From: Polytrichum commune
Taxonomy: Eukaryota > Streptophyta > Polytrichopsida > Polytrichales > Polytrichaceae
Reading direction: 5' to 3'
Assembly (NCBI GenBank): GCA_950295325.1
Contig: OX485808.1
Location: 31,578,527 to 31,642,526, forward strand
Length of the DNA stretch: 64,000 nt
Below, one piece after another: positions 7,160 through 42,776 of this stretch. Made by a program: the position numbers and the translations under genes. The notes under the pieces are model-generated. The model was not told where the DNA came from, made no database searches, and worked only from the letters and a program-made list of their open reading frames with translations. The number at the start of each line of letters is the position of its first letter. The stretch's first letter is position 1.

Positions 7160-7707
7160 TCCCTTCATTCATGAGTGGCTCCCAATTCCACATGACTCAC
7201 ATTTAGCCCCAAATGGGCGGGAATCCATTTTCAAGGTCGCTTCCTCTTCCTCTCCGACCGTTGTGTCATACTGCACCCTGCCTTTGCTGTTGGATTTGTT
7301 TGAGTTTGAAGTGCCGGGACTAGATACTTTGTGCATTGAACTGTGGCGAACTGTTGCTGCTCCTGTTCCTGTTGTTCCTCTCCTTAAGATCATTCTCGTG
7401 GAGATATATACTCCATCCAAGCCAGGTTCGAATTCGTTGGTGAATTTTGTTGCGTTGAATTGATTGTGTGGGCCGATTTTTGAGCTATGTTTGATCTATA
7501 GCGAACTCCTCTGGCTGCTTTTGTAGCTGATTGACATGCTCCTGGAGATTGATTGCACCCTAGCTACCTTTGGTGGTGAATTTTGTTACAGTGAATTGCT
7601 TCCTGCTCCTCGTAAAAGTGGATGCGCTTATTAAAGTGGTGCATGCTCACATTAACGTCAATTGTGACGTAGTGCTGGGATGACTTGTGGAAACTGGTAA
7701 ATGTCCT
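7160..7707 (+). promoter_or_regulatory. Arm C promoter and leader, E2F-like site
   Basis: CACATGACTCACATTTAGCC leads into AAATGGGCGGGAATCC, with the E2F-like GGGCGGGAA at 7215-7223. The GCTCCTGGAGATTGATTGCA leader unit is at about 7539-7558, and CTCGTAAAAGTGGATGCG at about 7609. The same order is seen in arms A and G. Confidence 0.45.
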
Positions 7708-8388
7708 ATGCAGATGGCTCAGATGAGTGACAAAACAGTAGACCGCGGGAAAGGTCCAGCGATACGTAATAACAGTCCCGACCCTTCTGACGAATCCTCG
7801 GGAAGCACAAAAGACCGTCCACGCCGAGAAGGTAAACAGCTGAAGAAATCTCAGATCCTTGAACGAGGATCCATGGAGGAGGAAATATATAAATTCGTTG
7901 TGTCCAAGATAGTGGCCGAAGTAGAGACACCATTCAATTTATGTCCGCCGGAGTCACAAAATGAATCATCCGCCCAAGAAGGTGACAAAGAACTCAAGCA
8001 AAGAGAGCTCCAGCTTGATCTAAAGTTATGTCCTCCGGCGTCACAAAACGAATCACCCCGCCAAGAAGGTGACGAAGAACTGAAGGAAATTGAGATCCTT
8101 GATCTAAATGTGGTGAAGAAAGTATGGTCGCACATGGTGAAACGGGTAACTCACAGAATGCTATCAACTTTGGATGCCACTGATGAAGAATACAATTCGG
8201 CAGAGAAGTTAAACTCAAGGCTGGATATATTACTAGAACACGAAAGTGAAGAAGAACTGAAGGCACGTAAAATCCTCACAAGCTCAATGTGGGAGCTATT
8301 TGCGAACTTCCGCACACGGATGCAAATGATCCTCCGAGACTTCGAAATGAATCACCCCGCCGAGGATCATTTGAAATTGCATTTGTAG
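7708..8388 (+). CDS. Acidic repeat protein of unknown function, module copy C
   Basis: The 226-residue product (MQMAQMSDKT start) is a close relative of the protein at 1919-2959 and has no recognised domain. The frame is open upstream to a GTG at 7687 that preserves the family phrase ETGKC, suggesting that the ancestral start codon was lost and a downstream ATG is now used. The order is: a disordered acidic start, an EEEIYKFVVSKIVAEVETPF segment, two copies of a CPP-x-SQNES-linker separated by about 35 residues, a W-x-HMVKRVTHRMLS helix, then KILTSSMWEL and RDFEMNHP. It is shorter than copy A because one full module is missing. Confidence 0.6.
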   Translation: MQMAQMSDKTVDRGKGPAIRNNSPDPSDESSGSTKDRPRREGKQLKKSQILERGSMEEEIYKFVVSKIVAEVETPFNLCPPESQNESSAQEGDKELKQRELQLDLKLCPPASQNESPRQEGDEELKEIEILDLNVVKKVWSHMVKRVTHRMLSTLDATDEEYNSAEKLNSRLDILLEHESEEELKARKILTSSMWELFANFRTRMQMILRDFEMNHPAEDHLKLHL

Positions 8389-10121: not shown

Positions 10122-11006
10122 TCATCGTCTCTTCCCAAATTGCCTCCTCCATAGACAAGCGAGCATTTTTTCTTTCAGTTCTATTGGAAGTTGGCCTGAT
10201 AATTCGTTCTGGGAATTCTCCTCCAGTTTTTCACCACCGGATTCCTTCTGTTCTTCAATCACCACCAGATCGTCGTCCACATGAGTAGAAGCCTCTGCTC
10301 CATCTTCTTTCTTGACCATCTTCAGGCCGGTTTCGCAGCTCTTTGCTGTGCGTTGAGTGGATGCTTCATCATCCTTCTCCTTCAGTTTTTCACCACCCGA
10401 TTCATTCTGTGCTTCAATCACCACCAGATCGTCGTCCACATGAGTAGAAGCCTCTGCTCCATCTTCTTTCTTGACCACCTTCAGGCCGGTTTCGCAGCTC
10501 TTTGCTGAGCGTTCAGTGGATTCTTCATCATTCTTCTGCAAGCTTTCAGCCTGTTCTGTGGGATCATTCACAGGAATCTCAGAACCGTCATCAATTATCT
10601 CTTGACTTTCAATGTTTAACCCCTCTGTGCCGGATGCAGCTTTAGTTCCTTCGGAAAGTAAGGAAACTCCGTGTGCAGGAGAGTCCCGATCCTTCTGCAA
10701 CTTCTGGGCCATTTCAACTCCGTGTGTAGGAGAGGCCCGAGTAGAACTCTCACCTACTGCATTAGCTTCGAACTTCAGGGCAGGTTTCCTGCGCTTTGCT
10801 GAAGGTTCTGTAGGATCATTCAAAGAAGGTTTAGAACTAATCTCATCAATTATCTCTTGACGTTCGAGGTTGAATCCCTCCGTGCAGCAAGCGTTTCCAG
10901 ACTCTTCTGATGAACCTCCGTGTGCAGGAGAGTCCCGGTCCTTCTGGAACCCCTCCATTTGCGCAGGACTTTTTCCTTTATCCATGGCACATTTACCAAC
11001 TACCAT
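10122..11006 (-). CDS. Acidic tandem-repeat protein, module copy D
   Basis: This 294-residue product is the longest of its type and has no recognised domain. Two ATGs are in frame: 11006 (MVVGKC) and 10985 (GCCATGG, the context conserved in copy B). Residues 1-60 and about 85-145 are related repeats (QKDRDSPAHG ... EGLNIESQEIIDD). A second tandem duplication of about 53 residues follows (159 bp, about 10225-10540), each copy with SCETGLK-x-VKKEDGAEAST and DDDLVVIE. The protein is very rich in Glu, Asp, Ser and Lys and lacks membrane or signal segments. The C terminus ends in WRRQFGKRR, a basic patch that could act as a nuclear signal, which is only inference. Confidence 0.6.
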   Translation of the reverse strand: MVVGKCAMDKGKSPAQMEGFQKDRDSPAHGGSSEESGNACCTEGFNLERQEIIDEISSKPSLNDPTEPSAKRRKPALKFEANAVGESSTRASPTHGVEMAQKLQKDRDSPAHGVSLLSEGTKAASGTEGLNIESQEIIDDGSEIPVNDPTEQAESLQKNDEESTERSAKSCETGLKVVKKEDGAEASTHVDDDLVVIEAQNESGGEKLKEKDDEASTQRTAKSCETGLKMVKKEDGAEASTHVDDDLVVIEEQKESGGEKLEENSQNELSGQLPIELKEKMLACLWRRQFGKRR

Positions 11007-11690
11007 TTCGTCCCAATAGACGTTGTCACCACCACTTTAATCAATTAGCGCAACCGTTTTCACGAGGAGCAGTAAGAAATCACTCTTGACACAATTCACC
11101 AGCAAAGCTAGCTAGTGTGCAATCAATTTCCAGGAACATGATCGAATACAAAGGAAGGGAGAGGAATTAGCTACAGATCGATCAATCCTCCAAGCTCTCG
11201 GATCAATCATTGCTCCAACAGATTTCACGTGATTCAACTGAGATGGCTAGGGTAGGGTGCAGTTGTCTCCAGAGCGTGATCGGATACAAATCAAGGCAGT
11301 CAATGGGAAGGCTATCTACAGATCATTCCACAAAGAACCTTAGGGTGTTGTCTGCTTCGATACAAAATAATCATTTCTTCGAAGAATGTTCCACGTTTCC
11401 TTTCCAGATTGGTGAAGACCATGTTCAATCCAACGTGCAAATTAACTCTCGGCATCAAAGTGTTGAACAAGATAGTACTGTATGGTATCTTGTCCCGGCA
11501 GAATTCAACTCAAACAAATCCAAAAGCAAAGGCAGGGTGCAATATGATCTCCAGCAGCATGATGAGTTACGAAGGTGAGGATAAGGAAATTTGAAAATGC
11601 TCTCCCGCCCATTTGGGGTTAGTTGTGACTCATGTAGAACTGGGAGTGTCATGACTGATAACCGGTGGATCCTCCAACTCCAAGTTTTGG
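11007..11690 (-). promoter_or_regulatory. Arm D promoter and leader, E2F-like site
   Basis: CTCCCGCCC at 11602-11610 is GGGCGGGAG on the coding strand. Outside it, the coding strand reads ACCGGTTATCAGTCATGACA, identical to arms A and E, which fixes a conserved outer boundary near 11680. Repeated leader units follow towards the gene, ending in CACGAGGAGCAG and TTAGCGCAACC near 11040-11070. Confidence 0.5.
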
Positions 11691-13301: not shown

Positions 13302-13309
13302 TTTATTAG
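13302..13309. repeat. Left 8-bp target-site duplication of the hAT element
   Basis: TTTATTAG lies immediately outside the first base of the left inverted terminus. The identical octamer follows the right terminus at 28743-28750. An 8-bp duplication is the standard signature of hAT insertion. Confidence 0.9.
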
Positions 13310-13396
13310 CAGGGTTGTCTATTGTGTCGTGACGGAGGGTAATCCCGGCATAATGTCGTGCCGTCACGACACGTATCCGTCACGACATTATGCCGG
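13310..13396 (+). repeat. Left terminal inverted repeat and subterminal hairpin
   Basis: The 13-bp terminus is followed by GTCGTGACGG at 13326-13335 and its complement CCGTCACGAC at 13361-13370 and 13377-13386. CCGGCATAATGTCGTG at 13345-13360 pairs perfectly with CACGACATTATGCCGG at 13381-13396, a 16-bp stem with a 20-base loop. Such clustered subterminal motifs are where hAT transposases usually bind. Confidence 0.85.
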
Positions 13397-13539
13397 ATGC
13401 TGTCTTTATCCTGACGGACTTGAATTTTACCGATTTTTTTGTGTAATTACATTAACCCAATTCGGACACGTAGGATTTACAATGTCCACGTGTGATGACA
13501 TGTCAGCAAAGTAAAGGTAAAGTGGGGAAAAATTTACTA

Positions 13540-13795
13540 GAGCCCGTCCGCCCCCCCGTCCGCCCCCATTCCCAACCCCCGTTCGCCCACGTTCCCCCCC
13601 GTCCGCTCCCGCTCCCCGCCCCGTCCCCAACCCGTCTGCTCCCCCCGTCCGCTCCCCCCCCACTCCCCCGTCCGCCCCCTCCATCCGCTCCCCCGTCCGC
13701 CCCCCCGTCCGCTCCCCCCCCTCCGTCCACTCCCCGTCCGCTCCCCGTCCGCTCCCCCCCCCTCCGTCCACTCCCCGTCCGCTCCCCCGTCCGAT
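13540..13795. repeat. C-rich minisatellite array 1
   Basis: Short variable units centred on GTCCGCTCCCC repeat about twenty times. The array lies between the left end and the transposase. The G-rich complementary strand has closely spaced G runs able to form quadruplexes. Long open frames across it on both strands (Pro/Arg/Ser or Gly/Arg/Asp) are artefacts of the repeat. Confidence 0.85.
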
Positions 13796-14040
13796 TCGAA
13801 TACTATAAATTGAGGGTTCAAGGTGCCATTTTTGCCTCCACTGACATAGTGTGTCTCAAGTCTTTTGATTCTCCTTTGAGGAGTGAGGATTGAATGCGTG
13901 AGACCCGAATGCAGAGGATACTTTGTCCAATCTAGTGACTGTGAATTAGGGTTGCCCTTGTGGCACTCTTGAACAAGACCTAGTATGCGATCAAAGTTAC
14001 TTGCTCTAACTTGTTTGTATTTGCAGGTTTTGTTGAAGTC

Positions 14041-17000
14041 ATGCCACGCCAAAATGATGCATGGGATCATTGGTACGAGGATAAGGGCCGGGATGGTTCC
14101 CGGTAAATCACAAAGGCAGGTTAAATGTAGGTTTTGCCCGTTCGTCATATCTTACCGAGGAAATAGAATGTTGGCCCACCTTGGTTATAGACCTCCTGTA
14201 GGGGGTGCTTGTGATGTTTCCACATGTAGGATGGTTCCCCCGCATATTAGGGTCTTGTTTGAACATTGCGGAGGCATTGTGCCCTTACATGTAGGCATTG
14301 TAAATGAGGACTCTCCGGTGCCAGATATTGTACCTCTGGAGCCTATTATAGCGGACTCCGTAATTAGTGAAACAGAGCCTTTGCTTATGTCCCAATCCAC
14401 TCAACATTCTGATGTTGTGATATATGGCACACCTCCTGGTGAACTACGTCAACTCAACATAACGGAGGGGTTCAATGTGTCAACAAAACAACTCCTTGAT
14501 AAAGCATGGGCAACGGCTTTTTATGAAGCTAACATTCCTTCAACATTGTGAGACATCCTGCATTTGTTCATGCTGTGCGTGAAACTACCCGTCATCGAAT
14601 GCCAGCCTACACACCACCATCGTACAATGCCATCCGTACGAAGTTCTTAACTGATAAAAAGGTTGACCTAGATAGGCAAGTGAAGGAGAAGCTGGGGAAT
14701 TCCGTTGACAAATATGGCGTTACACTATGTTGCGATGGATGGGACAACGTGCAAAACCGACCTCTCCTAAACGTTCTTCAATGTGGCACAAAGGGAGACG
14801 TTTTCTTGGGTACCATTGATACCATGGGAAATCACAAGGATCATGTCTACGTTGCTGCTCAAATTCAACCATTTGTGGAATAGGTTGGTCGACATAGTGT
14901 GGTCCAAGTTTGCACCGACAATGCCCCAGTTATGGCCTCCGCTGCTCGCGACTTGATTCGAGCAAATCCCGATCTATATTTTCAAGGATATGCTGCACAT
15001 TGCCTAGATCTCCTCTTAGAAGATTGGGGGAAGGAGGAATGGGTGAAAAAGTTGGTAAAAAAAACGCGCCATATTTGTGTATTTGTTAAAAACCATCATG
15101 CTTCTCAAGCTATATTCCGGAGGTTGTCACCAAATCTCTCACTCCGCCTACCTGTAGAGACCCGTTTTGCAACGAACTTCATCATGATAGAACGTCTTCT
15201 CCAAGTACGCAATGCTTTGGAAAGAATGGTGGTTGATGAGGATTGGCCTACTCTAATGCGTGATATGAGGAGGAGATCTCGCACCTCTTACATGAAGGGC
15301 TCTGCTATGCGAAGCTTTATACGTTCTGATGGATTCTGGAACACGTGCGAATTTTTTTTGTATATGGTGATCCCGGTTGTTAAAGCTCTTCGTATATTTG
15401 ATGGCAAGGCGCCTGCAATGGGAATGGCTTGGAGGGTCATGCATGATTTACAAACCCATATTCGTGGATTCAGTAAACCTCCATTTCGCTTAAGCCCTGA
15501 GCTTGCTACAAATGCTATGCTAACGTTTCAAAATAGATGGAGGTTGATGTTGAATGATCTACATTGGGCTGGAGCGATGTTAAATCCGCTTCTACGTGGT
15601 TGGGCCCTACTCCATGAGGATGACAATCCGAGGACAATCCTAAATCGAGTTCTTCGCAGGCTTGCTCAAGATGAGGACACTTATGTCCAAATCCTCCACC
15701 AGTACCAAGATTTCCTTGAAAATCGAGGGCCTTTTGCTGATTCTACTGACCTGAGCGTGCATGCCGCATCTCTCCATGAATGGTGGGATGCAATGGGAGG
15801 TGGAGCTAAAGCCCTCCAAACAATAGCAAGACGTATCCTTGCACAAGTATATTCCGCATCCGCATGTGAACGCAATTGGAGCATGTACTCATATGTTCAC
15901 AACAAGAGTCGCAATCGCTTGAAGCATAGTCGTGCTGAGGACCTCGTCTACATATATACCAATAGTAGGCTCATTCGACATTGGAGGGGCCCAAGACCTG
16001 CGCAATGGTACGAATTGAATGAGGTCCATTCTGACGATGACCTTGAGGAAGAAGATGACAACGAAGATGACGTGGATCCAAATGATAGGGCCGGAAATGA
16101 TGATGACAACAATGTTGATGACATCGACTTTTATTTGGATGACCTCGATTCCGAGAATCATGATTCAGAAGATGAGGATGGCAATGGTGGTGATGGAAAC
16201 CTTGGGGTGTTTGATTTTGATGAACCGGATGTCCCCCAACATAACGACGGAATGCATGATGCTCATGAGGGGTCTATTGGAGGACCGCCTTTTGAAACTC
16301 TCCACACTGGACAAGGGTTTCGCCCTGACCATAATGTTGCTATGGGGGCAAGTGAGAATGTAGGAATTGAAGTAGATTCTTTGCAACCTCGGAGCGATTC
16401 TCTTTCTTTTGGTGAAGGTGACAATGTACTACCCGTAAATGAGCCAACGCACGTTCAACAGGATCCACTTCCAACCCGAGTACATTCTGAATCCATAGAC
16501 GCCTCCCTCATATCCAACCATCGTGTAGAAGATCAAACGCCCAATATTCCTGAAATACCTACAACTCGATTTCGTGCTCTTCAAAGAACTGCATCCACCT
16601 CTACAGTGCAAGTGCATGCACAAGGTCAACGTCGTCCTCTCACTCGAAGTATTGCCAATACTTCTATATTGGGTGTTTTACGTGCAACTACGGTAGGTGC
16701 TACTTTGGTTGCTATACACAATGTTTCAAGAAATGTTACTACTGAGGCGCCACGTCGTCAATCTGTTCGTCGACATGTTGTTGAGAACACACCAATTGCA
16801 ATTCCGTCCGCATCAGTTTCACTTCCACACAGTCAATCCAATGAAACAGGTGGCCTTGGAGTTGGAGGCGGAAGTACAACGGGGGATGTTTTTATAGATG
16901 GAAGTAGAGATGAAGTGCACTCAAGTCGTGGTACGGGTGGAGGGCGTCAGAGAACTACGAGAGGTGTCAAACGTACTAGGAAGAAGTATCAGGGAAGATC

Positions 17001-17241
17001 GCTTCCGTTTACTGCTGAAGATTACAATGAAGATGAGGGTAGACCACATCTAGATGAAAATGGCATACAGGATGCAGAGGGCTCCCGGCCGACCAAGAAG
17101 ATAATTTTCTCACAATGTGACCGAGAGTTGCATCTTCGGAGCGCGACTCCCCAAACGGATGATGATTGCAGCACAGACGAGTCTGAAGAGGACCCAAGAT
17201 GTGTCGAAGCAAATGATCCCACAGTACGGATTCGAACGTAA
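14041..17241 (+). pseudogene. hAT-family transposase with BED-like finger, damaged
   Basis: DNA transposase for the surrounding element. The likely start is MPRQNDAWDHWYEDKG. A BED-like finger follows (VKCRFCPF ... LAHLGY), then the RNase-H-like core and the C-terminal dimerisation segment (ERNWSMYSYVHNKSRNRL). The catalytic triad is visible: Asp at 14734 (CDGWD), Asp at 14917 (CTDNA) and Glu at 15868 (ACERNW). Three lesions break the frame: an apparent extra base in a CCC run near 14100, a missing base in a T run near 14538, and an in-frame TAG at 14881. The two shifts compensate. After the dimerisation segment the frame stays open for about 400 residues: first an acidic Asp/Glu stretch, then an unrecognised basic/Ser-rich tail. 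hAT transposases normally end soon after dimerisation. An upstream acceptor-like TTTGCAG at 14020 suggests a 5' intron. Confidence 0.8.
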
Positions 17242-17398
17242 TGGTTTTGTACAAATGCAATATTTTGGTGCTTCCACGTACTCCCATAATTTATTACTTA
17301 CGTCAAAATTGATACAAGTTACAATCTTAGGGCCTTCGGTAAGACATTTAGACCACAAAGCGAACATTATCTTCGAAGTTGTATCATTTTATTATATT

Positions 17399-17404
17399 AA
17401 TAAA
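17399..17404 (+). terminator. Candidate poly(A) signal after transposase
   Basis: AATAAA lies 158 bp beyond the transposase stop in an AT-rich stretch. Plausible but weak by itself. Confidence 0.35.
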
Positions 17405-17940
17405 ATTATTTATTGCATATTTTTTTAAAATTTAAAAATACAATATGGTTGTCAACTTAGCATTGCAATTAATTTCCAACAACATGTTATGCCTTTATTA
17501 ATTACTATTTTATATTATTCTTACTGTGAATGGAGTTTTATGTTTATTTATTGAGCTTCTTAAAAAAAATGCTTTTATAAATATTGCAATCCCCTATTGC
17601 TCGATTGTACATACTTTGTTGGTGACATCCTCTTTTTGAGGACCATTCTATCCGTTTTATATAATTATATCTTTATGTGGTATTCAATATTGACTATGTA
17701 GTCAATAGTACTTTTGGTTAGACTATCATATGAATTACTAATATTCAAGTAAGTTTTTAAAAGTTTCGAATAACATTAAAATATGTGGCATCCATATGCT
17801 ATCTTTTACACGATCTTAGAAATGACAACTTGTCAGTAAATCCTCTTTATATTACATATTCTTTGAACATGAAATACGTTCATTGTGTCCAAAGTCTTCC
17901 TCCGTTCCTATACAACTTTCTAAACATGGTACAAAAATGC

Positions 17941-20244
17941 CTAATCCGAATCTGAATCGAGGTCTATTCTAGCTGAAGTAGATCCTCGTCGTGCTCGAGA
18001 TGATTCCCCCGCTTTCATATTTCGCGTTGTTCCACGGGTGAAATATGGACGACTACCAGGAGACAATGGAACGGCATTACGTGGTCTAGGCCCACCATTT
18101 AGCCATCTCAATACCGCATCATCCGCAACTCTATGCAAGAGTGCATCAATTGCAGCCAACTGCAGCCTGTTCTTGTAGTACCCCACCTCTAACTGCAATT
18201 CAAATCTCGGATCCCGTTCCGTAGGCACGTCATTTGCATCTTTTTCCAAATCATGCTCCGATACTGATTCGAGACCTGCTGCATTGTACCAAGGAGGATG
18301 AATGCCTCTCTTTAATTGTCTGCTGGTTGTATCCCAATGTCATTCAAGAGTTTGGTACAAAAATATTTTCAAGCCATGATCGGGGGGCTTGTTGGGATAC
18401 AACTCGTCTGCAACATACAAAATTTGACGTGCATTCCGTGTCCAGTCGCCATCTATGTTCTCGTGCCATAGCTCAACCTTGGCACAATTGTATAACCAAC
18501 TCCACTCAACATTCTCCTCATCAAACTCTTGAAGATCGAAGGGAAAGTCTCATGGCTTTAATACATAGTCGTTAGGCATGTAATCCCGAAGGCCAAATTG
18601 GAGATACAAACGAGGGTGGAAGGGTGATCTGCAATGAGGACATTGGCGTTTCTTGATCATATTCCCTATTAGACATTGTGGATGGAATTGGGCCCCACAT
18701 GATCCAACTTGATAGCATCCTTCCGGGCCAAATGGAGATTGGCAAATCGTACACGCGGTTCCGTCGAAGATCATTGTATGTGGATTTGGCCATAACAACT
18801 CACCCCTCATGCGGAATTGATATTCATGCACTTGGGTCACATCCCAATGGTGATCTAGGTCGGTCACTTGACGCCAATCGATGCTCCCGTTTGGCAATGT
18901 TCACTCATTAGTTATATCCCACCTACTAGGGTACATATGCTCATCTTCTGGCCATTACGTGAGCATCATGTTCCGCATTCTCTGATTGCGGTTCCATTCT
19001 TTCTAGATACTCTCAAACTCAGCTTCAAATTGACGAGCCTTGGCCATAGCAAGCAATGTGCTTGTCCTCATATTCTTGCGCTCCACAATCGCATCCAACA
19101 GGAATTTCTTCAACCTTGCATTCTGCTCCTCCAGTCCGCCAATCTTGGCTTCGTGATCAACAACCACTTCATTGACCACTTGAAGTTGTTGTTGTATGTC
19201 CACCACCTCCTTTTGCAAAGCCTCTATCTTTCCTCGCATTACTTCATTCCTCATACATACTTCCAGAGCTTGTGACTTTGCAATCTAGGCCTCCTGTAAA
19301 GTTGCGTCCCTCTCTGCTTCCGAAGACTGAAAGTTAAGTGGTGTACTACTTGAACTGCCAGCCTCCCCCATCGTAAGTGTTGCAACTCGATTTTCCAACT
19401 CGAAAATCATCGTTTTATACTCACGAATTTCCAACGCATGTTGCTTACGCAATTCCTCCATTCTGCTCTCCATCGGGTCCGCTCCAAGTTCACCAAGGTT
19501 TACCTCGTCTAGGACCTCGTTAACCACGTCGTTGATCAGGTTGTTGACCTCGACATTTGCCTCCATGCCCTCATCCATATGCTCAAACGCCTCTTCGATG
19601 GCCATCTCCACGTCATTGGCTGGTCGTTTACGATTACGTGGCTTTTTTGGTTCCCGACCCTCTGGAATTGGGGCCCCAGGCTCATCCACTAGTCGAGGAT
19701 TCCTCTTGAACCACTCCGGAACGGGAGTGTATGGAATATCTGGAACTGTGCATTTAGTGAATGCAATTCCAATACCCCCAAATTTCTGATTATGCAGAGC
19801 AGCCAAACTTGACCAATCCACCCTAACTCGCAACACGTGCTCCGCATACATCATACACGCCACCGACTTTGGAATTGCACTCTTGGGCCATCTATCCAAA
19901 TTGGAGATACTTCTAAATATCGTTAAGAATCTTCATTTTGCCTCCACGTCATCAAGCTGCATATAACTCGCACTGATGGCCTTACAATGTCGCTCGTGAC
20001 AAGGTCTTGGCCACAACCGATCAAAGTGAGGGAAGCCCACGTACTGCATTGCAGTCTTCGCTGACCACGGTTGTGGTACATTCTCCCAACCTGCCCTGGT
20101 TTTTTGGGTGTTGTCATCATAAACATCCCACTCCAACCCAGCGGCCTTGCGTACATGTGATCTGTGACAACCTGATCCTCCACTTGCCATGTCCCCAGAT
20201 CCTCCACTTGCCATGTCTGGAAATCCTTCACTTGCCGTATCCAC
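17941..20244 (-). pseudogene. Coiled-coil and RING-like cargo gene with seven in-frame stops
   Basis: One reading frame runs 768 codons on the minus strand with no frameshift but with internal stops at 19933 (TGA), 19285 (TAG), 19003 (TAG), 18955 (TAA), 18901 (TGA), 18550 (TGA) and 18340 (TGA). The first ATG is at 20214. The N-terminal part has a tandem MASGGSGD repeat and WSAKTAMQYVGFPHFDRLWP. A middle part follows (DRWPKSAIP ... VDWSSLAALHNQKFGG) with Lys/Arg-rich and acidic stretches. Two Leu/Glu-rich coiled coils lie at about 19500-19290 and 19254-19010. Then comes a RING-like zinc site, CTIC ... CGAQFHPQC ... CPHC, at about 18750-18610, followed by FHPRLYLQFGLRDYMP. The C-terminal end is Ser/Arg-rich. 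It could be a ubiquitin-ligase-like or DNA-associated protein. It converges on the transposase gene. Confidence 0.65.
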
Positions 20245-20689
20245 CCAAATTGTAATTTCTAATTCTGATCTAGACCTCTAATTTTTAAATTACTAATTGC
20301 ACTCCATAATAGTGCTACAAAACATCCAAGCATACACTTCAAAATAGTGTTGCTATGGAATTAGTTCAAAAATGTCGTTAAAAATTAAAGTTCAAAAATT
20401 CAGCACACCCTTCGAGCAGCCCGCTACCAGCGCTCACGCAGAGGCCAGTTGATTGGGCGCGTCACAAGAAATATGCCACGTCATAAGGGAACGGGTCTAC
20501 GTGGATCACACCCACAAACAGGTCAGTAAAAATATTATAAAAGGGTCCCAAAAAAATGATCCTTAACTCCTCCGAGCATCCCGCTACCCCGCACTCTGTA
20601 GTAGAGGAGGGTCGTCCGGGCGCCCACAAGGAGTGGAATGGGGTATGTAAGTGGTCCCCTCCACTTATATATCCCTCCATCTGCTCCCC

Positions 20690-21080
20690 GTTCCCACCCA
20701 GTCCGCACCCGTTCCCTATCGTCTGCGCCCGTTCCCCTCCCAGTCCGCACCCGTTCCCCTCCTGTCCGCACCAATTCCCTCCCGTCCGCGCCCGTTCCCC
20801 TCCCACTCCGCACCCGTTCCCTATCGTCCGCGCCCGTTCCCCCCCAGTCCGCACCCGCACCCGTTCCCACCCCCGTCCGCACCCGTTCCCTTACGTCCGC
20901 ACCCGTTCCCTTACGTCCGCCCCCTCGTTCCCCTCCGTCCGCCCCATGTTCCCCTCCGTCCGTTCCCCTCAGTCCGCTCCCGCGTTCCCCCCGTCCGCTC
21001 CAACGTTTCCTCTCATCCGCTCCATGTTCCCCTACGTCCGCTTTAGAGTTCCCATCCGTCCGCTCCCGCGTTCCCCTTGA
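20690..21080. repeat. C-rich minisatellite array 2
   Basis: Units of the form CCGTCCGCACCCGTTCCC and shorter variants repeat about twenty times. The array lies upstream of the minus-strand cargo gene starting near 20244. The unit composition shifts from GCACCCGTTCCC on the left to GCTCCCGCGTTCCC on the right. Confidence 0.85.
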
Positions 21081-21097
21081 ATCTGCACTTTTTAACT

Positions 21098-21232
21098 TTT
21101 TTTAGAAGTTTGGACATAGTCTCGGTTTTTTGGCTCTCAAAAATTCATATGAAGTCCAAAAAATGAGTTCTTAGTATCCATGGATAGGTAATGAAGTCCT
21201 CTACATGAATATGCAATAATATTTTTACTGCA
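21098..21232 (+). repeat. Conserved internal block, copy 1
   Basis: The block runs from AGTTTGGACATAGTCTCGG through GTATCCATGGATAGGTAATG to TGCAATAATATTTTTACTGC. Copies 2 and 3 start at 24365 and 27803 in the same direction. Here the C-rich array lies before the block, with only a trace after it (to about 21255). The phrase ATCCATGGAT is palindromic. Function unknown. Confidence 0.8.
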
Positions 21233-21590
21233 CATTCCCGCGTCCCCCCATCCGCACCCCATCTAACTTAGGCCCTTCGCAAATAATATATGTGACACTA
21301 AATATCATAACCGGTGTACTTATTCACATAAAACTAATGAAGGATCCCTCAAGCAACAAAGTAACCAATGTAGTATGATGACCAACAAATTATCACCCCA
21401 TAGAAGTATGCAATAATAAGCGGTTGGTTGAAATTTTATAAAAAATATATATCATAGAAGTGGTACAATATATTGTACAAGTAATAATTTTATTATTGCA
21501 ACGGCGGTACAAATGCCCTTTATAAATCACATACATGAACAAACCATGCACGATTTAATATTCCACTTTATTCCGTCAACTTGACTTCCG

Positions 21591-22143
21591 TTATGGCAAC
21601 CTCGTAGATGCTTGTGGCTTCCGTCGAGGGTCCATTTTTGGGAGAGGATTCGGTCGAAGTAAATCAACATAGCTAATCGTTCGGTCTTTCATCCGTTCCT
21701 TCAATGGTAGCCGATGAGGTGATAATCCTCTCCTCTTCTTACGAAAAGGCAAAGTCCTTGAAGATTTTCCCGCTACCTTGACATCTTCAATGTTGATTGA
21801 ATTGTCATCCACATCCCCGGGCTTCACCCAAATATCCACACTCAAACCAACCACATCATTTGGCTTCACCCACGTTTTTTGTTAGGTCTTTCTCCACTGC
21901 ATTGATCTCGAATTTCGCCGCATATCGTCGTTGGTCCTCCTCCGCCCTCAACTTCCATGCTTGTGTAGATTGTGAGAAAGGGGTCATGACATAGTCATCA
22001 CGAAATCGATCTCTAGCACTTCTCTCATCTCTCTCACGCTCGGGTGATGGATTGAATGGAATATCGGGTTCACCTAAATTTGCTATCTCCTCATCACATC
22101 CTAGACCCTCAAACATGTCTCTCTTCTCTCCCATCCTATCCAT
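21591..22143 (-). pseudogene. Small unknown cargo gene, one-base frameshift
   Basis: Starts with MDRMGEKRDMFEGLGCDEE, a highly charged protein with ERERDERSARDRFRDDY and SQSTQAWKLRAEEDQRRYAA. The first frame ends at 21856. A second frame beginning at 21869 continues with the tandem motif WVKPNDV ... WVKPGDV and a basic tail (KKRRGLSPHRLP). Removing one base from the AAAAAA run near 21880 would join them, so a one-base slip or a base-calling error is likely. I do not recognise a family. Total length would be about 182 residues. It lies on the same strand as the RING-like gene and could have been its 5' neighbour or partner. Confidence 0.5.
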
Positions 22144-22414
22144 GATACTCTACCCTCGTTATATGTATGAGTTTAAATGCTCTACTTATATACTGAGTTC
22201 AAAGGACTTTATGAAATTTACAATATTTGATGTAATCTAAGATGTAGAGGATCCAATTCTCGTTGGTAAGATAAAGACAACACAATAGGAATAAAAAGAA
22301 AGTTGGTGAAGTCAAAAAGTTAGTTGCACTTTTTGAAAAAGTCCCCCGACACCCGCATTGGAAACCTCTTTGATACCTCTTTGAAGCTTCTATATTTGAT
22401 GGGTTGTCCTTTTA

Positions 22415-22710
22415 TTCAATAAATCACATATTTGTGCTTCAACCTTAGTAGTTCGTATGGTTTCACAACCCACACACATTCGAATGTCATTTTAATTCAA
22501 CAAAGTATATATTTCAACCTTTGTGGTTCATATGGTTTTACAACGCATTTCAGACATCCGAATGTCATTTTCATTCAACAAATCACATATTTGTGCTTCA
22601 ACCTTAGTGGTTCATATGGTTTCACAACCCACACGCATCCCCTTGCCCTTTCATTCAACAATTCACATATTTGTGCTTCAACCTTTGTGGTTCCTAAACC
22701 CTAAACCCTA
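22415..22710. repeat. Roughly 80-bp tandem repeat ending in telomere-like motif
   Basis: About 3.5 copies of a unit containing ATTTGTGCTTCAACCTTAGT and GGTTCATATGGTTTCACAAC, spaced 78-83 bp. The last copy runs into CCTAAACCCTAAACCCTA at 22693-22710, the plant telomere motif on the complementary strand. Internal to the hAT element. Confidence 0.75.
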
Positions 22711-23489
22711 CGTCTACGTCATTCCAAATTGCTACCACATATGTGCCATTGTTTTGTTCTCACACTCATGTAGAAGTGTTTCCATACATGGTTTGAGGGT
22801 TTAGGTTCCCAACTTTCCAACGAACCCACCCGCTTTTTTTTACGATGCCTACAGCGAAAGATAAACGTTCGCAAATCGCGATGACTACTTCAAGTTGGCA
22901 TAATCTCTACTTAGACATATAACTTATGGTATACATTGGGGTTTTTAGAAGGGGTCATGAACGCACGTGATTCTCAAACATAATGTAGAGTGCATCCCCC
23001 GAGTTCCCATAGGCTTCATAAAGATATCTTACCAACACCTTACACAAATTAGAACATTCTAGAAAAGCAAATTAATCTGGTTCACATTGATATTAAACTA
23101 GGGAATTGGTGTGGGCTTAAATTTAATATGGCCCACATTAGTGATCATTTGGGGGGTGCACTATACTAAATCCGTATGAGTATATGTGAGTGCACAAAAG
23201 AGGTATTGATTTGAACTTTGTTGTATTATGTATACGTATTCTTCACAAAATTATAAGTTGTAGTTATGTAAATATATAGAATAATTTAAAAATATATACA
23301 ACATCTCTACTAACTTGTATGATAGTGTCACTAGATTTTATAGAATAAGGTTTATTTTATTTTAGTATTGGCTTAAACTGGTACATAAAAAGAACCAACC
23401 ACATGTGAACATACGATCTTACATATCATTTGATGGTAGACTTCAAAACAATAATTGCATTAGCTTTTATGACATGTATTACAAATCAG

Positions 23490-23760
23490 ATTATGGGAGG
23501 ATTGAATGGAAACATATGCTTAGGGACTTGGAAAAAAGGTCGGACGTGGCCTACCATAACATTCTTAACAAATTTGATTTGATTTGGGGGGTCAAAGGTC
23601 TTATTGTGACCCGTAGCCACTTAGTCCCTACTTGGAAGGATAGGCCTCAAATGAGCATTATTTATAGATTTCCACTTAGGCTGCGCTGTTTCGGCTGGGT
23701 TGGTTGTATTTTGAATTTGAATTTTCAATTTGTGCCAAAAAAAAGAATAAGACATGTATT
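23490..23760 (+). repeat. Repeat shared with 56270-56520 outside the transposon
   Basis: Shared phrases include GGATTGAATGGAAAC, GACGTGGCCT, TTCTTAAC-AATT-GATTT and CTTATTGTGACCC. In translation both show VTRS preceded by LIV and an FDL segment, so the repeat may derive from an old coding sequence. One copy lies within the giant hAT and one about 27 kb beyond it. Confidence 0.6.
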
Positions 23761-23770
23761 GCAAATCTAA

Positions 23771-24357
23771 GGGCCGGTTCACAATATGGCCAAACTTTGA
23801 GAGGTTCAATATTTGGACCAATGAAAATGCTGAAATGCCCAAAGTCCGTCCTCTCGGCCTTCACACTAGAGGCCGAAGTCCAAATGACGTCGCCTCCAAA
23901 AGAGCCTAGGTGGCAACACTTTTAGGAAGTTATGGCGCCAAGAGTTCGGCCTCTCGAGCAAAGTTTGGGTATAGCAAAATGCTCAATCCAAACTTCCGTC
24001 GAGAGGCCAAACTTTTTTTTCATTAAAATAATCAATCATTGACAAGATCTTGGCCGTTAGATTGGAGGGGTTATTTTGAGCAAGGAATAAAGTGGCATGC
24101 TCCTTTGAGTTTGGACTTTGGGCTTGGCCTTTGGAGGCTTCACACTTTGGCCATCCAAGCCAAGAGGCCGTGGGAGTTCATGGCCAAAGGTTTGGACTTT
24201 GCGCTTGGCCTTTGGAGGCTTCACACTATGCCCAACTAAGGCTACCCTTACTATATTTTATTGGCTATTTTCAGTTCATTTCTTTGGACTCTCAACAAAG
24301 TTGGGCCACTCAATCGCACGGCCTCTCGACTTGGACGGCCATAGTGTGAACTCGGTC
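23771..24357. mobile_element. Nested MITE-like element inside the hAT
   Basis: GGGCCGGTTCACAATATGGCC at the left is mirrored by an imperfect complement ending GTGTGAACTCGGTC on the right (about 16 of 21 positions). The subterminal parts also pair (GAGAGG and GGCCTCTCGA). Inside, a roughly 80-bp unit with GGCTTGGCCTTTGGAGGC is tandemly duplicated at about 24120 and 24205. TAA precedes the left end but is not matched exactly at the right, so the superfamily is unresolved. Confidence 0.5.
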
Positions 24358-24364
24358 ATTTACA

Positions 24365-24850
24365 TTTTTTTTTAAAAGTTTAGACATAGTGTCCGTTTTT
24401 TGGCTCTCAAAATTCATATGAAGTCCAAAAAATGAGTTCTTGGTATCCATGGATAGGTAATGAAGTCCTCTACATGAATATGCAATAATATTTCTACTGC
24501 CAGAAAATACATGGCCGCAATTCCACGTTGTTCCCCTGCCCCCTTCAACCCGTTCCCTCCCGTCCGCCTCACGTTCCCCACCCGTCCGCTCCACGTTCCC
24601 CTCCGTGCGTTCACGTTCCCTCCCGTTCCCTCTCGTCCGCCCCGCGTTCCCCTCCCGTCCGCCACACGTTCCCCTCCCGTCCGCCCCGCGTTCCCCTCCC
24701 GTCCGCCCCGCGTTCCCCACCCGTCCGCCCCACGTTCCCCACCCGTCCGCCCCACGTTCCCCTACCGTCCGCCCCACGTTCCCTTCCGTCCGCCCGAGTT
24801 CCCCTACGTCCGCCCACTCGTTCCCTCCGTCCGCCCCCGCGTTCCCATGT
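24365..24850 (+). repeat. Conserved block copy 2 plus C-rich array 3
   Basis: Block (24365-24535) then an array of units like GTCCGCCCCGCGTTCCCCTCCC to about 24850, directly upstream of the kinase gene. The same block-then-array order, with the junction phrase ATGGCCGCAATT, occurs at 27803-28470 downstream of the kinase gene, so the kinase gene is bracketed by direct repeats. Confidence 0.85.
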
Positions 24851-24921
24851 TCCCCATACGTCCTTTTCATGCCCCATGTCAAATCCGACCGGGATCCCAT
24901 AATGATTGTGCACCGCTTTGC

Positions 24922-24930
24922 CTATATAAA
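24922..24930 (+). promoter_or_regulatory. TATA box of the kinase cargo gene
   Basis: CTATATAAA lies just beyond the C-rich array, followed by a C/T-rich leader (CCCCTCACTTTCCTCTCCTC) about 30 bases downstream where initiation would be expected. The start codon is about 226 bases further on. CATTCACTCACTC repeats and a TTTTTTCCAG acceptor-like site lie in the leader. Confidence 0.6.
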
Positions 24931-25155
24931 GCCGTGGGGCTTTAGTTCCCCTCACTTTCCTCTCCTCCCACCACAAAGGGACCCGAGACCTTGTTGCCGT
25001 CCCAAGGACAGCGGCACCGCGCGGGTCTCAGGGGGTTTGGGAGGGCAGGGCAAATTGTGGGGGAACCCTCGCAATTTTTTTTCCAGATTCACTTGCTGAT
25101 TTCTACATTCACTCACTCATTTCTACATTCACTCACTCACGCGGTTTTTTTCACG

Positions 25156-27072
25156 ATGGAGGGGGAGGACATTGCTCTTTACCAAGACGAGGATACGAGG
25201 GTGCACCGTGCTTGGCTCCAACGCACTCCATCTACGTATACTGGAGAGGGTACAGGAAGCGATGCCGGAAGTGGAAGTATTGCAGTCCGTCCCCCACGTC
25301 CAGATCCTTTTCGGTTTGGCGAAGAGTTCTTTGTTGTTGGTCATTCAGGAGGCAACCAAACACGTGGAAGCCGTGGAACACGTGGGAGTCGGGGAAACAG
25401 TGGCCTTAGAGGGAGAACAGGAAGGGGACCAAGCTCAGGCAGTTCCACAGATATAAATGCAGCCACTCGTGGTGAGTCCGTGCCACCACGATCTCCGACA
25501 CGGCAGACATCAAGACCGGAGAGCCCTGCACGTGATGTACCTCAGGGTTCGGAGCATGGTGAAAGACGGGGACAGAAACGCCCAGCAATTTCGAAAGGGA
25601 CGGAGGAGGGGTCCGCGGTATCAGGTTCGCAATCGAGGAAAAAGAAAAATAGAGGCAAACGCGACCCGCGGATCGATGAGGCTCGAAACCATTGTAGGGT
25701 CGTGCTGTTGGAGTGGTTTAGAAATAACATTATGGTTTATTTGGAAAAAAAATACCTCAATGATGGTACAAAGGGTTTAGAGTTGGTGAGGAACGAATTG
25801 ATGCTTATTCTCACGGAAGCCACGGCTGGACCAGAGTTTGAAGAAGCTAGGGGCATGAACGATTGGGACACCTGGATTGAACAACAAGCCAGGGAAGCAA
25901 TCTACAATCCAACAATGGCATATGATGCTCTGCATCCTGGCGAGGGAAATAGTAGTGGCAGGAAGTCCGAGCTGTACATGAAGCTAGAGAATTGGAAAAG
26001 AGGCATAATAGCAGCAAAAGGAACATCCACCCGCAACCTTCCCATTTTTATTGACAGGCAGATGGCAGACAACATTGCCACTCAGGGCCGGCAGGGTGTC
26101 ATATGGTTGCCTAGGAATGCGGAGATCAAAGCCTTGGATAAGGAAATCTTCCAAGGGACCTTCGGAGTGGTGCGGAGAGTCACAATTCATGGAGCATCAT
26201 TCATCCCTAGCTGGATAGAGTGGGCTGGGAAGACCATGAAGGCCACGAATAGTCTGGAGAACCGAAAGGAGTGTTCAATTGAAGCATTGGCGTGTCCAGT
26301 AGATCATCCTGGGGTAATCAAGCTACAATACCTCAATATGAAAACATACGAATCCTATTCGATGTGGTGGAATGGAGGCTCCTTGAAGAACATGAGGGTC
26401 TATGACTTCAGCGTTCCGGAAACCCACGAGCGCACAATCCTTCAAATGTCTGGGGCAGACTTTGAAGCACGGAAACGGTTGGTTGTATATCGAAGGCATC
26501 GAGCTTATTTGGCATGGGCTCTAATGTGCATTGTGGATGTAGTGCACAAGCATGACGTGTTGCACAATGACCTTAATTCCAACAATGTCATGCTGCATTT
26601 CCCACAAGACCGTGATAACACGGTTTACATTGGTGTGTGTGATTGGGGCATGGCATCCTGGGGAGGTGAAGACGCACCCTCCAACTATGGAAGAGATTCA
26701 GTGGATGAGATGAACAAGCACAAAGCAAAATACAACTGTGCTGGTCCAGAATTATTCTATGTATGAGGGCAGCGTGGAACATCCACCTCTCCGGTGAGGA
26801 TGGCTCGGAAACATAGGCACACGTTTCTCTCGGAGTCCTTCTCAGTGGGTGCTTTGGCAAAGAAGATTTATGCCAGGGATGCGACTTCCCCCTTGTTTCA
26901 GCTAAACAGTGATCCAAATGGCTTGAATATGCGGTTTGAGTTAGCATTGGATTCATTGACGAAGACCAATCCAGCGGAAAGGTCAACCATCACACACGTA
27001 GTGAACATTTTGAAGTCCCCTCCATACAACATGGTTAACCCGACAATATGCTTCCGTGACACTGCAAAATAG
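25156..27072 (+). pseudogene. Protein-kinase-like cargo gene with one in-frame TGA
   Basis: The ATG at 25156 (MEGEDIALYQDEDTR) is preferred over an upstream in-frame one lying in leader sequence. Residues 1-190 are disordered with RGSRGTRGSRG-type repeats. The kinase fold begins with a glycine loop (QGTFGVV, Gly334), then a candidate ATP lysine in EWAGKTMKA and VDHPGVIKL. The catalytic loop is HNDLNSNNV (Asp472), the metal motif DWG replaces DFG, and PEL replaces APE. After Val536 a TGA (26764) interrupts, then the same frame continues to 27072 with the rest of the C lobe, including NPAERST. Key catalytic residues are present, so activity could survive if the stop were bypassed. HND for HRD is a variant seen in several divergent kinases. 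Substrate unknown. Confidence 0.75.
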
Positions 27073-27135
27073 ATTTTTTTTATTTTTTTTGCAGCAATTT
27101 TGAATCATACCAATTTTGTAACCGTTGGAGATGTA

Positions 27136-27141
27136 AATAAA
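27136..27141 (+). terminator. Poly(A) signal after the kinase gene
   Basis: AATAAA 64 bases past the kinase stop, within GTAAATAAAGCC, and followed by a T-rich stretch. Confidence 0.5.
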
Positions 27142-27802
27142 GCCATCATTTTTTCATACAAAACTTGTATCTTGTATGAGGTTTATGGATCTTAGTGCAA
27201 TGTTCATACTCCATGAGGCTTTTGCTCCATAATCGAGAAGAAGTCTATGGGAGGCTAACCAATGTTCTCGCCTCTTGTGAGGCCACATCGTACTTTCACA
27301 TCGTTGTTATCACATCCATGTGCTAAGTTCAAGTTACCTATAGTTGTTTGTGATATGTCTTGCCAAAATGCAGTTACCTATATTTATTCTAATTTTGGTA
27401 TGCCACAAAATGTAGTCAACTATAGTTATATCTAGTTAACTAAAGTTGAGCACAATATTGCAATAGTTATATCGGTTGTACACGTGATCCTCAACATCTC
27501 TAAATGTTAACTTTCTTCTACCCCCCACATATTGCACACTATAAATGTTAAACGTGTTAAATGTTAACAAAATGGTACTCCCTTCTTTGTAAATCTGACT
27601 CTATAAACATTAACGGATGAAATACAACCATAATATGGATGATAAAAACTATACATCCAGTTACATTGATTCATATTCACTCGTGATTTGTAAACTTGAT
27701 ATTGAATAAAGTTTTGATTGGATGTGCAATTTTATGAATGGTATTCTCTCACAAGGACTCTTCACAATTGCTTATATTTATATTTATATAATTCAGAAAC
27801 AC

Positions 27803-28470
27803 TTTTTTTTGGAAGTTTGGACATAGTCTCGGTTTTTTGGCTCTCAAAAATTCATATGAAGTTCAAAAAATGAGTTATTGGTATCCATGGATAGGTAATG
27901 AAGTCCTCTACATGAATATGCAATATTATTTCTACTGCCAGAAAATATATGGCCGCAATTGCACGTTGTTCCCCTCCCCCCCGCTCCCCTCCGCGTTCCC
28001 CCGTCCGCTCCAGCGTTCGCCCCCGTTCCCAACCCCCATCCGCTCCACCCCCCTCCCCCTCCGTCCGCTCCACCCCCTCCCCCTCCGTCCGCTCCACCCC
28101 CCGTCCGTCCGCTCCACCACCCTCCCCCGTCCGCTCCACCCCCCTCCGTCCGCCCCACGCCCCACCCCCGTCCGCTCCACCCCCCTCCCCCTCCGTCCGC
28201 TCCACCCCCCGCCCCCGTCCGCTCCACCCCCCTCCCCCTCCGTCCGCTCCACCCCCCCGCCCCCGTCCGCTCCACACCCCCTCCCCCGTCCGCTCCACAC
28301 CCCCTCCCCCGTCCGCTCCACCCCCTCCCCCTCCGTCCGCTCCACCCCCCTCCCCCGTCCGCACCACCCCCCCGTCCGTCCGCTCCACCCCCCTCCGCCG
28401 TCCGCACCACCCCCCTCCCCCGTCCGCCCCACCCGTCCGCCCCCGTCCGCCCCCGTCCGCCCCACACCCT
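27803..28470 (+). repeat. Conserved block copy 3 plus C-rich array 4
   Basis: Block 27803-27974, then the longest array in the window, about 500 bp of units such as GTCCGCTCCACCCCCCTCCCC. It lies just inside the right end of the hAT. The block is very close to that at 24365, and array units have diverged mainly by expansion of C runs. Confidence 0.85.
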
Positions 28471-28661
28471 CCTTAGTCATATTTTTCTACTTTGATTTTA
28501 ACAGAATGATAAACACAATGGCAAAATGGTGTACTTGGCAAGGGAAATATGCACATCCACGTCGGCGTTTTCTGCCACATAGGACACCACCTTGGCAAGA
28601 AGGTAAGTATTTTACCCACCCTAGTCCATTCACCCTATGTTGACCCTACGTGGACCCTATT

Positions 28662-28742
28662 GTGTCGTGACGGAGGGGTCCGTCACGACACGACACGACA
28701 TGACGGCACGACACCATCATGACGTCGCGATAGACAACCCTG
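28662..28742 (-). repeat. Right terminal inverted repeat and subterminal hairpin
   Basis: GTGTCGTGACGGA at 28662-28674 pairs perfectly with TCCGTCACGACAC at 28679-28691 around a GGGG loop. Further CACGACA and GACGGCACGAC motifs follow, then the terminus ATAGACAACCCTG at 28730-28742. Motif content mirrors the left end. Confidence 0.85.
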
Positions 28743-28750
28743 TTTATTAG
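28743..28750. repeat. Right 8-bp target-site duplication of the hAT element
   Basis: TTTATTAG, identical to 13302-13309. The flank continues with GTCATGTATGTTACTAATTA. Confidence 0.9.
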
Positions 28751-34884: not shown

Positions 34885-35425
34885 TGGAATTGGAGGATCA
34901 ACCGGTTATCAGTTATGACACTCCCAATGCGACATAACTCACAATTAGCCCTAAATGGGCGGGAATCCTTTCAAATTCCCTTTCTCGTCCTCTCCTTTGC
35001 ATCTCGTCGACATGCTGCTGGAGATCATCATATTGCACTCTGCCTTTGCTGTTGAATTTGTTTTGGGTTGAATTGTTTCGAGATACGCTAATTTGAGCAT
35101 TGATCTGTAGCTAGCTGTTCCTGTGCCTGCCTTAATTTCTATCCGATCACGCTCCTGGATATTGATTTGCTGGTGAATTCTTTTGGATTGGATCGATTGT
35201 GCAGACAGCTAAATTCTACCGCCTGCCTTTGAATCTGATAATGCTCCTGGAGATTGATTGCACCGGCCTAGCTAGCTTTGCTGGTGAATTTTGTTGAAAG
35301 TGAATTGCTTACTACTCCTCGTAAAAGCGGTTGCGCTAGTTTATTAAAGTGGTGGTGACAACGTCTATTGTGACGAAGTGGTGGTTGGTAAATGTGCCAC
35401 GGATAGAGGGGAAAGTCCTGCGCAA
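34885..35425 (+). promoter_or_regulatory. Arm G promoter and leader, E2F-like site
   Basis: GGGCGGGAA at 34957-34965. CTCCTGGAGATTGATTGCAC is at about 35244-35263 and CTCGTAAAAGCGGTTGCG just before the gene. Same order as arms A and C. Confidence 0.45.
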
Positions 35426-36007
35426 ATGGAGAGGTTCCAGAAGGATGGGGAAGTCCCTGTATACGGAGCTTCAGAAGAGTCTGAAGATGCTTCCGGCGTG
35501 GAGGAATTAGACCTCGAACGTCAATTCGAGATAATCGGTGATGACGGTTCTGCTGAAACTCCTGTGCATGACCCTAGAGATCTGCTGGATCCGGATATTG
35601 ACTCCGGGGATCAGGTGGTTCCGGAGTACTTGGGGGATCGGGGAAACCTGGAAGAAGTAGACCTCGTATGTGACGAGAGAATTGATTACGATTCTGAATT
35701 TCCTGAGGATAATGTTGCAGATCAGGTGACGAACTTGCAGAGGAATAATGAAGAAAATTCCACTGATGAACGTTCAGCAAGACGCGGCGAAACTGGCCTG
35801 GAGGAGGTCACTAATGATGAAGGAGCAGAGACTTCTACTCAAGTGGCGGAAGATCCGGTGGTGAGCAACTCGCAGAATGAAGCCCCAGGGCAAGGTGGTG
35901 GTGAAGATCATCTAGAAGTGCTGTATGGTGATATCGTTGATCAAACAATAAAGGACGAGATATTGGACATTATGCGGGAGAAATCGCATATGAATATTCC
36001 TCCGTAA
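35426..36007 (+). CDS. Acidic module protein, copy G
   Basis: Unknown function, 193 residues from the first ATG (MERFQKDGEVPVYGASEESE). Sixteen upstream in-frame codons still spell the family start (VVGKCATDRGESPAQ), but the conserved GCCATGG has become GCCACGG and the outer codon is GTG, so translation has probably moved downstream. Shared with copies B and D: EESEDASG, LERQFEII, ERSARRGETGLEEV and AETSTQV. Acidic throughout, ending with HMNIPP. Probably disordered. Confidence 0.5.
   Translation: MERFQKDGEVPVYGASEESEDASGVEELDLERQFEIIGDDGSAETPVHDPRDLLDPDIDSGDQVVPEYLGDRGNLEEVDLVCDERIDYDSEFPEDNVADQVTNLQRNNEENSTDERSARRGETGLEEVTNDEGAETSTQVAEDPVVSNSQNEAPGQGGGEDHLEVLYGDIVDQTIKDEILDIMREKSHMNIPP

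Positions 36008-40144: not shown

Positions 40145-42776
<2,632 letters not shown>

Follow-up and report, generated by a model that had tools for sequence, protein, structure and literature searches.

The window analysed here, a 64-kb stretch of contig OX485808.1 from Polytrichum commune, contains a 15,433-bp hAT element (13310..28742, + strand) which is very likely one copy of a multi-gene hAT family, both in its anatomy and in the status of the two genes that it carries besides its transposase gene (T), a RING-like gene (R) and a divergent kinase-like gene (K). K and R are fixed, selected parts of the element in both subfamilies, and the biochemical activities of their products are predicted from sequence. 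The whole unit is inserted at different sites with different target site duplications, and its genes are co-inherited and constrained. All searches were made in one genome, assembled into 64 contigs that total 408 Mb and include seven large ones (42-78 Mb); contigs are designated C1-C7, and loci by contig:Mb.

The window copy has intact ends and three broken genes

The element is bounded by perfect 13-bp terminal inverted repeats (TIRs; left CAGGGTTGTCTAT, 13310..13322, + strand; right ATAGACAACCCTG, 28730..28742, - strand) and by a perfect 8-bp target site duplication (TSD) of TTTATTAG (13302..13309 and 28743..28750). A boundary scan of the 64-kb window for every 13-bp inverted pair ≤20 kb apart with identical 8-bp flanks returned this pair alone, bearing out a preliminary description of the sequence, according to which these repeats and this duplication bound 15,433 bp. 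Copies of GTCGTGACGG on both strands lie inside the left end (13326..13386) and inside the right end (28664..28689), and these subterminal repeats may be transposase-binding sites.

The ends of the window copy are intact, and intact proteins are not encodable: T (14041..17241, + strand) has a frameshift and a TAG at 14881-14883; R (17941..20214, - strand) has 7 stops by piecewise alignment; and K (25156..27072, + strand) is interrupted by a TGA at 26764-26766. Stop-free, full-length frames of all three genes occur in some copies, the intact transposases having 1060-1065 and the intact RING-like proteins 767-777 amino acid residues from ATG, and the intact kinase-like proteins 638.

Domain calls were made with Pfam profiles and their curated cut-offs. 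The transposase pieces of the window match both DUF659 and Dimer_Tnp_hAT above the cut-offs, as does the intact protein (DUF659, 121.6 bits, cut-off 34.7; Dimer_Tnp_hAT, 39.9 bits, cut-off 21.4), in agreement with the hAT transposase already reported inside the element; candidate catalytic D, D, and E residues, placed by eye from known hAT motifs, lie in CCDGWDN, CTDNAPVM, and SACERNWS, and no match to the transposase was found in PDB at E 1. The kinase-like protein scores 25.1 bits against Pkinase on the window piece and 27.5 bits on an intact copy (E 2.6e-6), below the cut-off of 31.7, and its best matches to solved kinases are marginal (E 0.012 by phmmer, 0.0077 by profile). A candidate catalytic Lys359 (AGK), together with HND...N and DWG, is invariant in all five aligned copies from two subfamilies; we take these to be the beta-3 Lys, HxD...N, and DxG kinase motifs. 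The third protein has a predicted coiled coil and a C4HC3-type finger, for which zf-RING_2 gives 30.3 bits on the window piece and 20.0 bits on an intact 767-residue protein (cut-off 27.3); the ligand order was read by eye as C4HC3, hence the label RING-like and nothing more. Structure models of K and R, built from 5- and 3-row alignments, were unusable (mean predicted local distance difference test scores of 30.9 and 34.2).

The three genes are linked throughout the genome

Protein searches of the genome gave at least 112 rows for T, at least 129 for R, and at least 82 for K, with matches on each of the seven large contigs; the kinase search scored 81 of 237 candidates, so that kinase counts are lower bounds. 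Among 93 transposase matches of at least 300 residues, 86 (a lower bound) are followed downstream by an R on the opposite strand no more than 12 kb away, in most cases at about 3.3 kb, at least 58 have K within 45 kb downstream, and at least 53 have both. When fragments were merged and 26 of the 129 RING rows excluded (17 distant, 9 fragments), 97 of 103 R loci over the whole genome had T no more than 12 kb away, and 74 of 81 K loci had it no more than 35 kb away. In 200 trials with K placed at random, such K loci numbered 1.57 on average and never more than 5. Conversely, 98 of 108 transposase loci have R nearby, and 75 have K. We considered whether apparently kinase-free copies reflect cargo loss, and rejected this for the three that were read fully (C7:25.1, C1:36.3, and C3:28.0), in all of which kinase sequence, partly broken, is present.

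Eleven giant loci made up the set read: the window, six further loci of group A, three of group B, and C5:4.67. The six A-group loci all have both TIRs (≤1 mismatch) and span 15,283-17,411 bp; five have perfect 8-bp TSDs and the sixth a TSD with one mismatch, each of them different. In group B, C1:46.38 spans 14,593 bp and has a TSD with one mismatch, while C7:11.04 spans 17,007 bp and has a perfect TSD. Over all 11 loci, 7 TSDs are perfect, 2 have one mismatch, and 2 fail, and the bounded copies measure 14.6-17.4 kb. The preliminary description had proposed looking elsewhere for both termini at about 15 kb and for the kinase and RING genes in the company of hAT sequences; the former occur together at several sites with different TSDs, and the latter lie beside the transposase at the great majority of their loci. 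The giant hAT lineage suggested there is thus supported, since the same anatomy recurs at several sites. Three giant copies at C1:21.867-21.969 Mb, which agree in their stop-codon counts and have neighbouring ends at even spacing, are probably a segmental triplication rather than three insertions.

K and R are constrained in both subfamilies

Ratios of nonsynonymous to synonymous divergence (dN/dS) were estimated by the Nei-Gojobori method with bootstrap intervals; values for sub-regions are given without intervals. Between groups A and B, dN/dS is 0.60 (0.47-0.84) for T over 1,037 codons that are stop-free on both sides; 0.50 (0.37-0.67), 0.50 (0.37-0.69), and 0.49 (0.37-0.67) for three pairs of K; and 0.55 (0.43-0.70) and 0.47 (0.37-0.61) for R, an intact A copy being compared with two B copies. 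Judged by the point estimates, K and R are under at least as much constraint as T, with overlapping intervals. Sub-region values between A and B are 0.33 for the kinase domain and 0.56 for the N-terminus of K; 0.40 for the coil, 0.67 for the finger region (440-600), and 0.81 for the C-terminus of R; and 0.61 for the middle part and 0.49 for the tail of T, with a ratio of 5.44 and dS of 0.009 for codons 1-185, which makes T a mosaic. Within group A the ratios are 0.70 for T, 0.52 for R, and 0.70 for K, as expected if copies decay after insertion.

A central open reading frame (ORF; about 21582..22143 on the - strand, bounds approximate here; about 186 residues in other copies) was considered as a fourth gene and rejected as a supported one: its position is kept, but its A-B dN/dS values are 0.90 (0.47-2.09) and 1.27 (0.63-3.36), with wide intervals. 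Of the three further genes originally counted in the element, two therefore stand, K and R, while the third, the central ORF, shows no sign of purifying selection. The term cargo, also used at that stage, is probably wrong for K and R, which are present in both subfamilies and, by point estimate, constrained like the transposase.

Alternative explanations

K and R would be neutral passengers if they were host genes that a hAT element had once enclosed between its ends and had carried along unused in its copies, a history with which the broken K and R of several copies (the window included), the within-A ratio of 0.70 for K, and the values of 0.67 and 0.81 for the R finger and C-terminus would all agree. 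Such passengers would not, however, be expected to show A-B dN/dS with upper bounds of 0.67-0.69 for K and 0.61-0.70 for R, nor to persist in the C5:4.67 lineage as well as in both subfamilies; moreover, no host K homologue of intermediate identity was found, the rows (at least 82) all showing ≥78% identity, with 81 of 237 candidates scored. We therefore think neutral passengers unlikely. Purifying selection alone is silent on who benefits, and K and R might instead be beneficial cargo kept for the host, a Starship-like logic; yet a fixed gene set at about 100 dispersed loci is what selection through transposition would be expected to produce, and K lies away from T at 7 of 81 loci, a count from which free-standing host copies could be missing at the number of candidates scored. 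We give retention for host benefit little credence. That a non-autonomous hAT element enclosed unrelated genes by chance at one place might be suspected from the short elements described below, which share the left end and are far commoner than the giant ones (581 left ends), but this composite is very improbable given that 9 of the 11 loci read show the same enclosure with an 8-bp TSD (bearing one mismatch at two of the nine) and that linkage is genome-wide. The triplication-like trio of near-identical copies at C1:21.87-21.97 Mb likewise recalls segmental duplication of a host locus, which we find scarcely credible as a general explanation when matches lie on all seven large contigs and different 8-bp TSDs abut exact TIR boundaries.

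Several observations nonetheless weigh against a multi-gene family in which K and R are selected: i) 33 of 108 transposase loci are without a kinase match within 35 kb; ii) group B locus C6:34.7 has TIR-like ends without a matching TSD, and C5:4.67 has a left end, its right end not being found in the fetched stretch; iii) the clean empty site with a single TTTATTAG that the preliminary description had hoped for did not appear, a search with joined flanks giving a 72% relative that spans the junction and is gapped at the target; iv) the excess at codons 1-185 of T points to uneven selection; v) both B copies behind the R ratios are broken, and the R finger and C-terminus are less constrained than the R coil and the kinase domain of K, so that, the finger being the less constrained part of the protein, we place little weight on ligase activity; vi) with the structure models having failed, the kinase and RING assignments rest on sub-threshold or borderline Pfam scores and motifs; and vii) three A1 copies each have an extra R-type TATA match in their central block, with no minisatellite nearby.

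Gene orders differ among subfamilies

The multi-gene family comes in three arrangements. Group A2, to which the window copy belongs, has the order T(+) R(-) central block K(+); in group A1 the kinase segment is inverted; and in group B the order is K(+) central T(+) R(-) at all three loci read. Of the 58 transposase matches that have a downstream kinase, 38 have the nearest one on the opposite strand and 20 on the same strand. Although C5:4.67 shares the A2 order, three unrooted gene trees group it with B, and the A2 order is for this reason probably ancestral. Cyclic permutation was rejected by inspection as the origin of the B order, since it cannot turn T-R-central-K into K-central-T-R.

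The three gene trees place C5:4.67 differently within B, and A-B divergence differs among genes and along T; together these suggest exchange between elements. In the comparison of A1 with A2, mean dS is 0.111 for K, 0.036 for T, and 0.059 for R, which might reflect exchange of K between the two; but dS for K is also 0.105 among A1 copies because one of them (C1:36.3) is rearranged and has a long branch.

Minisatellites, TATA motifs, and short derivatives

Tandem Repeats Finder places C-rich minisatellites at about 13.5, 20.7, 24.6, and 28.0 kb of the window, in keeping with the complex repeats noted earlier within the element. The first (13543..13793, C-rich on the + strand) lies beside the left end and upstream of T; the second (20687..21077, several overlapping rows) upstream of R; the third (24551..24846) upstream of K; and the fourth (28028..28450) beside the right end. 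Between the minisatellites and the genes are TATA motifs, at 13802..13816 (+ strand) for T, 20658..20672 (- strand) for R, and 24920..24932 (+ strand) for K. In nine elements tested with ≤2 mismatches (C7:11.04 and C5:4.67 being outside the test set), these motifs keep the orientation of their own gene; those of T and K were found in all nine elements and that of R in eight. The nearest minisatellite unit lies 15-48 bp upstream of the TATA motif for T, 31-107 bp for K, and 40-223 bp for R, and the minisatellite-TATA units may act as promoters. An additional T-type TATA match occurs in C7:26.6.

The left-end 25-mer (≤2 mismatches) occurs 581 times in the genome, and a reversed control 0 times; on C1, at most 23 of the 78 exact left ends listed have a transposase or kinase match no more than 12 kb away. 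The seven best left-end matches besides the window are short elements of 1,192-1,439 bp, all with perfect TSDs and with TIRs of ≤1 mismatch (the count excludes locus L020, which has one TIR in its stretch), and each consists of the left end, a minisatellite, and the right end of the giant element. The simplest origin for these derivatives would be a deletion between the left-end and right-end minisatellites.

A possible mechanism

Cut-and-paste transposition is established for the hAT superfamily, and in the family described here the element's own transposase would cut and paste the whole unit at 8-bp target sites, acting between the 13-bp TIRs with their subterminal repeats. Judging from the junctions, recombination between minisatellites is likely to have generated both the short derivatives and the different gene orders. 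K and R might control transposition or counter silencing by phosphorylating and ubiquitinating the transposase or host silencing factors, the likeliest role for them although one we propose tentatively. It is also possible, although less likely than not, that this plant hAT lineage has become a modular multi-gene parasite whose own kinase and RING-like, ubiquitin-ligase-type protein serve to counter silencing or control transposition, in which each gene is a minisatellite-TATA cassette open to inversion, movement, and exchange between elements, and terminal minisatellites yield short derivatives in one step.

We wish to emphasize what would follow if the family has the properties described. 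A hAT element of 15-17 kb that holds selected K and R genes would demonstrate the capacity of a plant cut-and-paste transposon to keep a small regulatory gene set; the use of phosphorylation and ubiquitination by a transposon against host silencing would become testable; and a single genome that contains three gene orders, whose breaks fall at minisatellites or close to them, provides a natural series for the study of transposon gene rearrangement.

Relation to known transposons

hAT elements are usually simple, a few kb long with one gene. The present family resembles the hAT superfamily (Ac/Ds, Tam3) in its DUF659/Dimer_Tnp_hAT transposase, short CAGGG TIRs, 8-bp TSDs, and Ds-like derivatives; unlike Ac, it is 3-4 times longer, has two further constrained genes and minisatellites by the gene starts, and varies in gene order. 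Starship-type giants carry variable host cargo (in part PMC12506042) and a tyrosine-recombinase captain, whereas here a hAT transposase is found and the same three genes recur; the likeness in logic to other giant transposons that had been suggested for the element consequently fails in this respect, the gene set being fixed and its order variable.

Ac itself is 4.6 kb with 11-bp TIRs, and Ds-del elements are internal deletions of Ac (PMC3260210). Fungal hAT7 transposons carry TET/JBP, and TET-bearing IS3EU elements also encode an alpha-kinase (PMC12730594); these are likewise DNA transposons with a regulatory enzyme as an extra gene, but they are fungal, with 7-bp TSDs in hAT7, and carry a TET/JBP dioxygenase in place of a RING-like protein, and the alpha-kinase of IS3EU belongs to an element of another superfamily, while our K weakly matches the classical Pkinase profile. 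ToxhAT/ToxTA, a 14-kb element once called hAT and now likely Tc1/mariner, is single copy and non-autonomous with a TA TSD and a 74-bp TIR (PMC12506042); it is a multi-gene DNA transposon of similar size, but differs from the family described here, whose TSDs are 8 bp long and whose transposase is of the hAT type. Pack-TYPE elements, Pack-hAT included, are non-autonomous and carry captured fragments (PMC8903248); they too are plant TIR elements with coding DNA, whereas here whole selected genes travel with the transposase, and full-length frames of T, K, and R without stops are present in some copies instead of gene fragments. Plant Vandal MuDR elements encode a regulator of their own silencing (PMC12730594) and, as plant DNA transposons with a non-transposase regulator, offer a model for the role proposed for K and R, albeit in another superfamily and with another type of protein. 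In the portion of the open-access literature covered, no plant hAT element with kinase and RING-like genes was found, and the whole word hAT occurs neither in a review of giant eukaryotic transposons (PMC6431247) nor in one from 2026 on gene capture by plant elements (PMC13317346).

Other features of the element, its relatives, and its surroundings

A conserved module of roughly 160-175 bp is present in the window copy at 21070..21231, adjoining a minisatellite (element coordinates 7761-7922), and again at about 24362-24537 (11053-11228) and about 27799-27975 (14490-14666). The central block also contains an 80-bp tandem repeat with 3.6 copies (22405..22693), the copy number being higher in group B.

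The 17 distant RING rows show 34-44% identity. Three of these loci (L031-L033) were read and are decayed relatives outside the present family, and tblastn at E 0.01 gave no match to T, K, or the central ORF there; at L032, an ORF for what we take to be a Harbinger-like transposase lies about 4 kb from the decayed RING relative. Another of these rows, a decayed RING-like match of 41% identity (C2:55502914-55503716), has a likewise decayed match to DUF659 less than 1 kb away on the other strand (C2:55503519), possibly an ancient relative of the transposase-RING pairing.

Around the element, four ORFs (1886-2959, 7684-8388, and 35348-36007 on the + strand, and 10122-11036 on the - strand) were seen by eye to contain segments resembling SQNESPGQEGDEEL or KGKSPAQM, and could be members of a local gene family or repeat. 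A further ORF at 41200-41733 (- strand) reads like, and is presumably, plant ribosomal protein L10.

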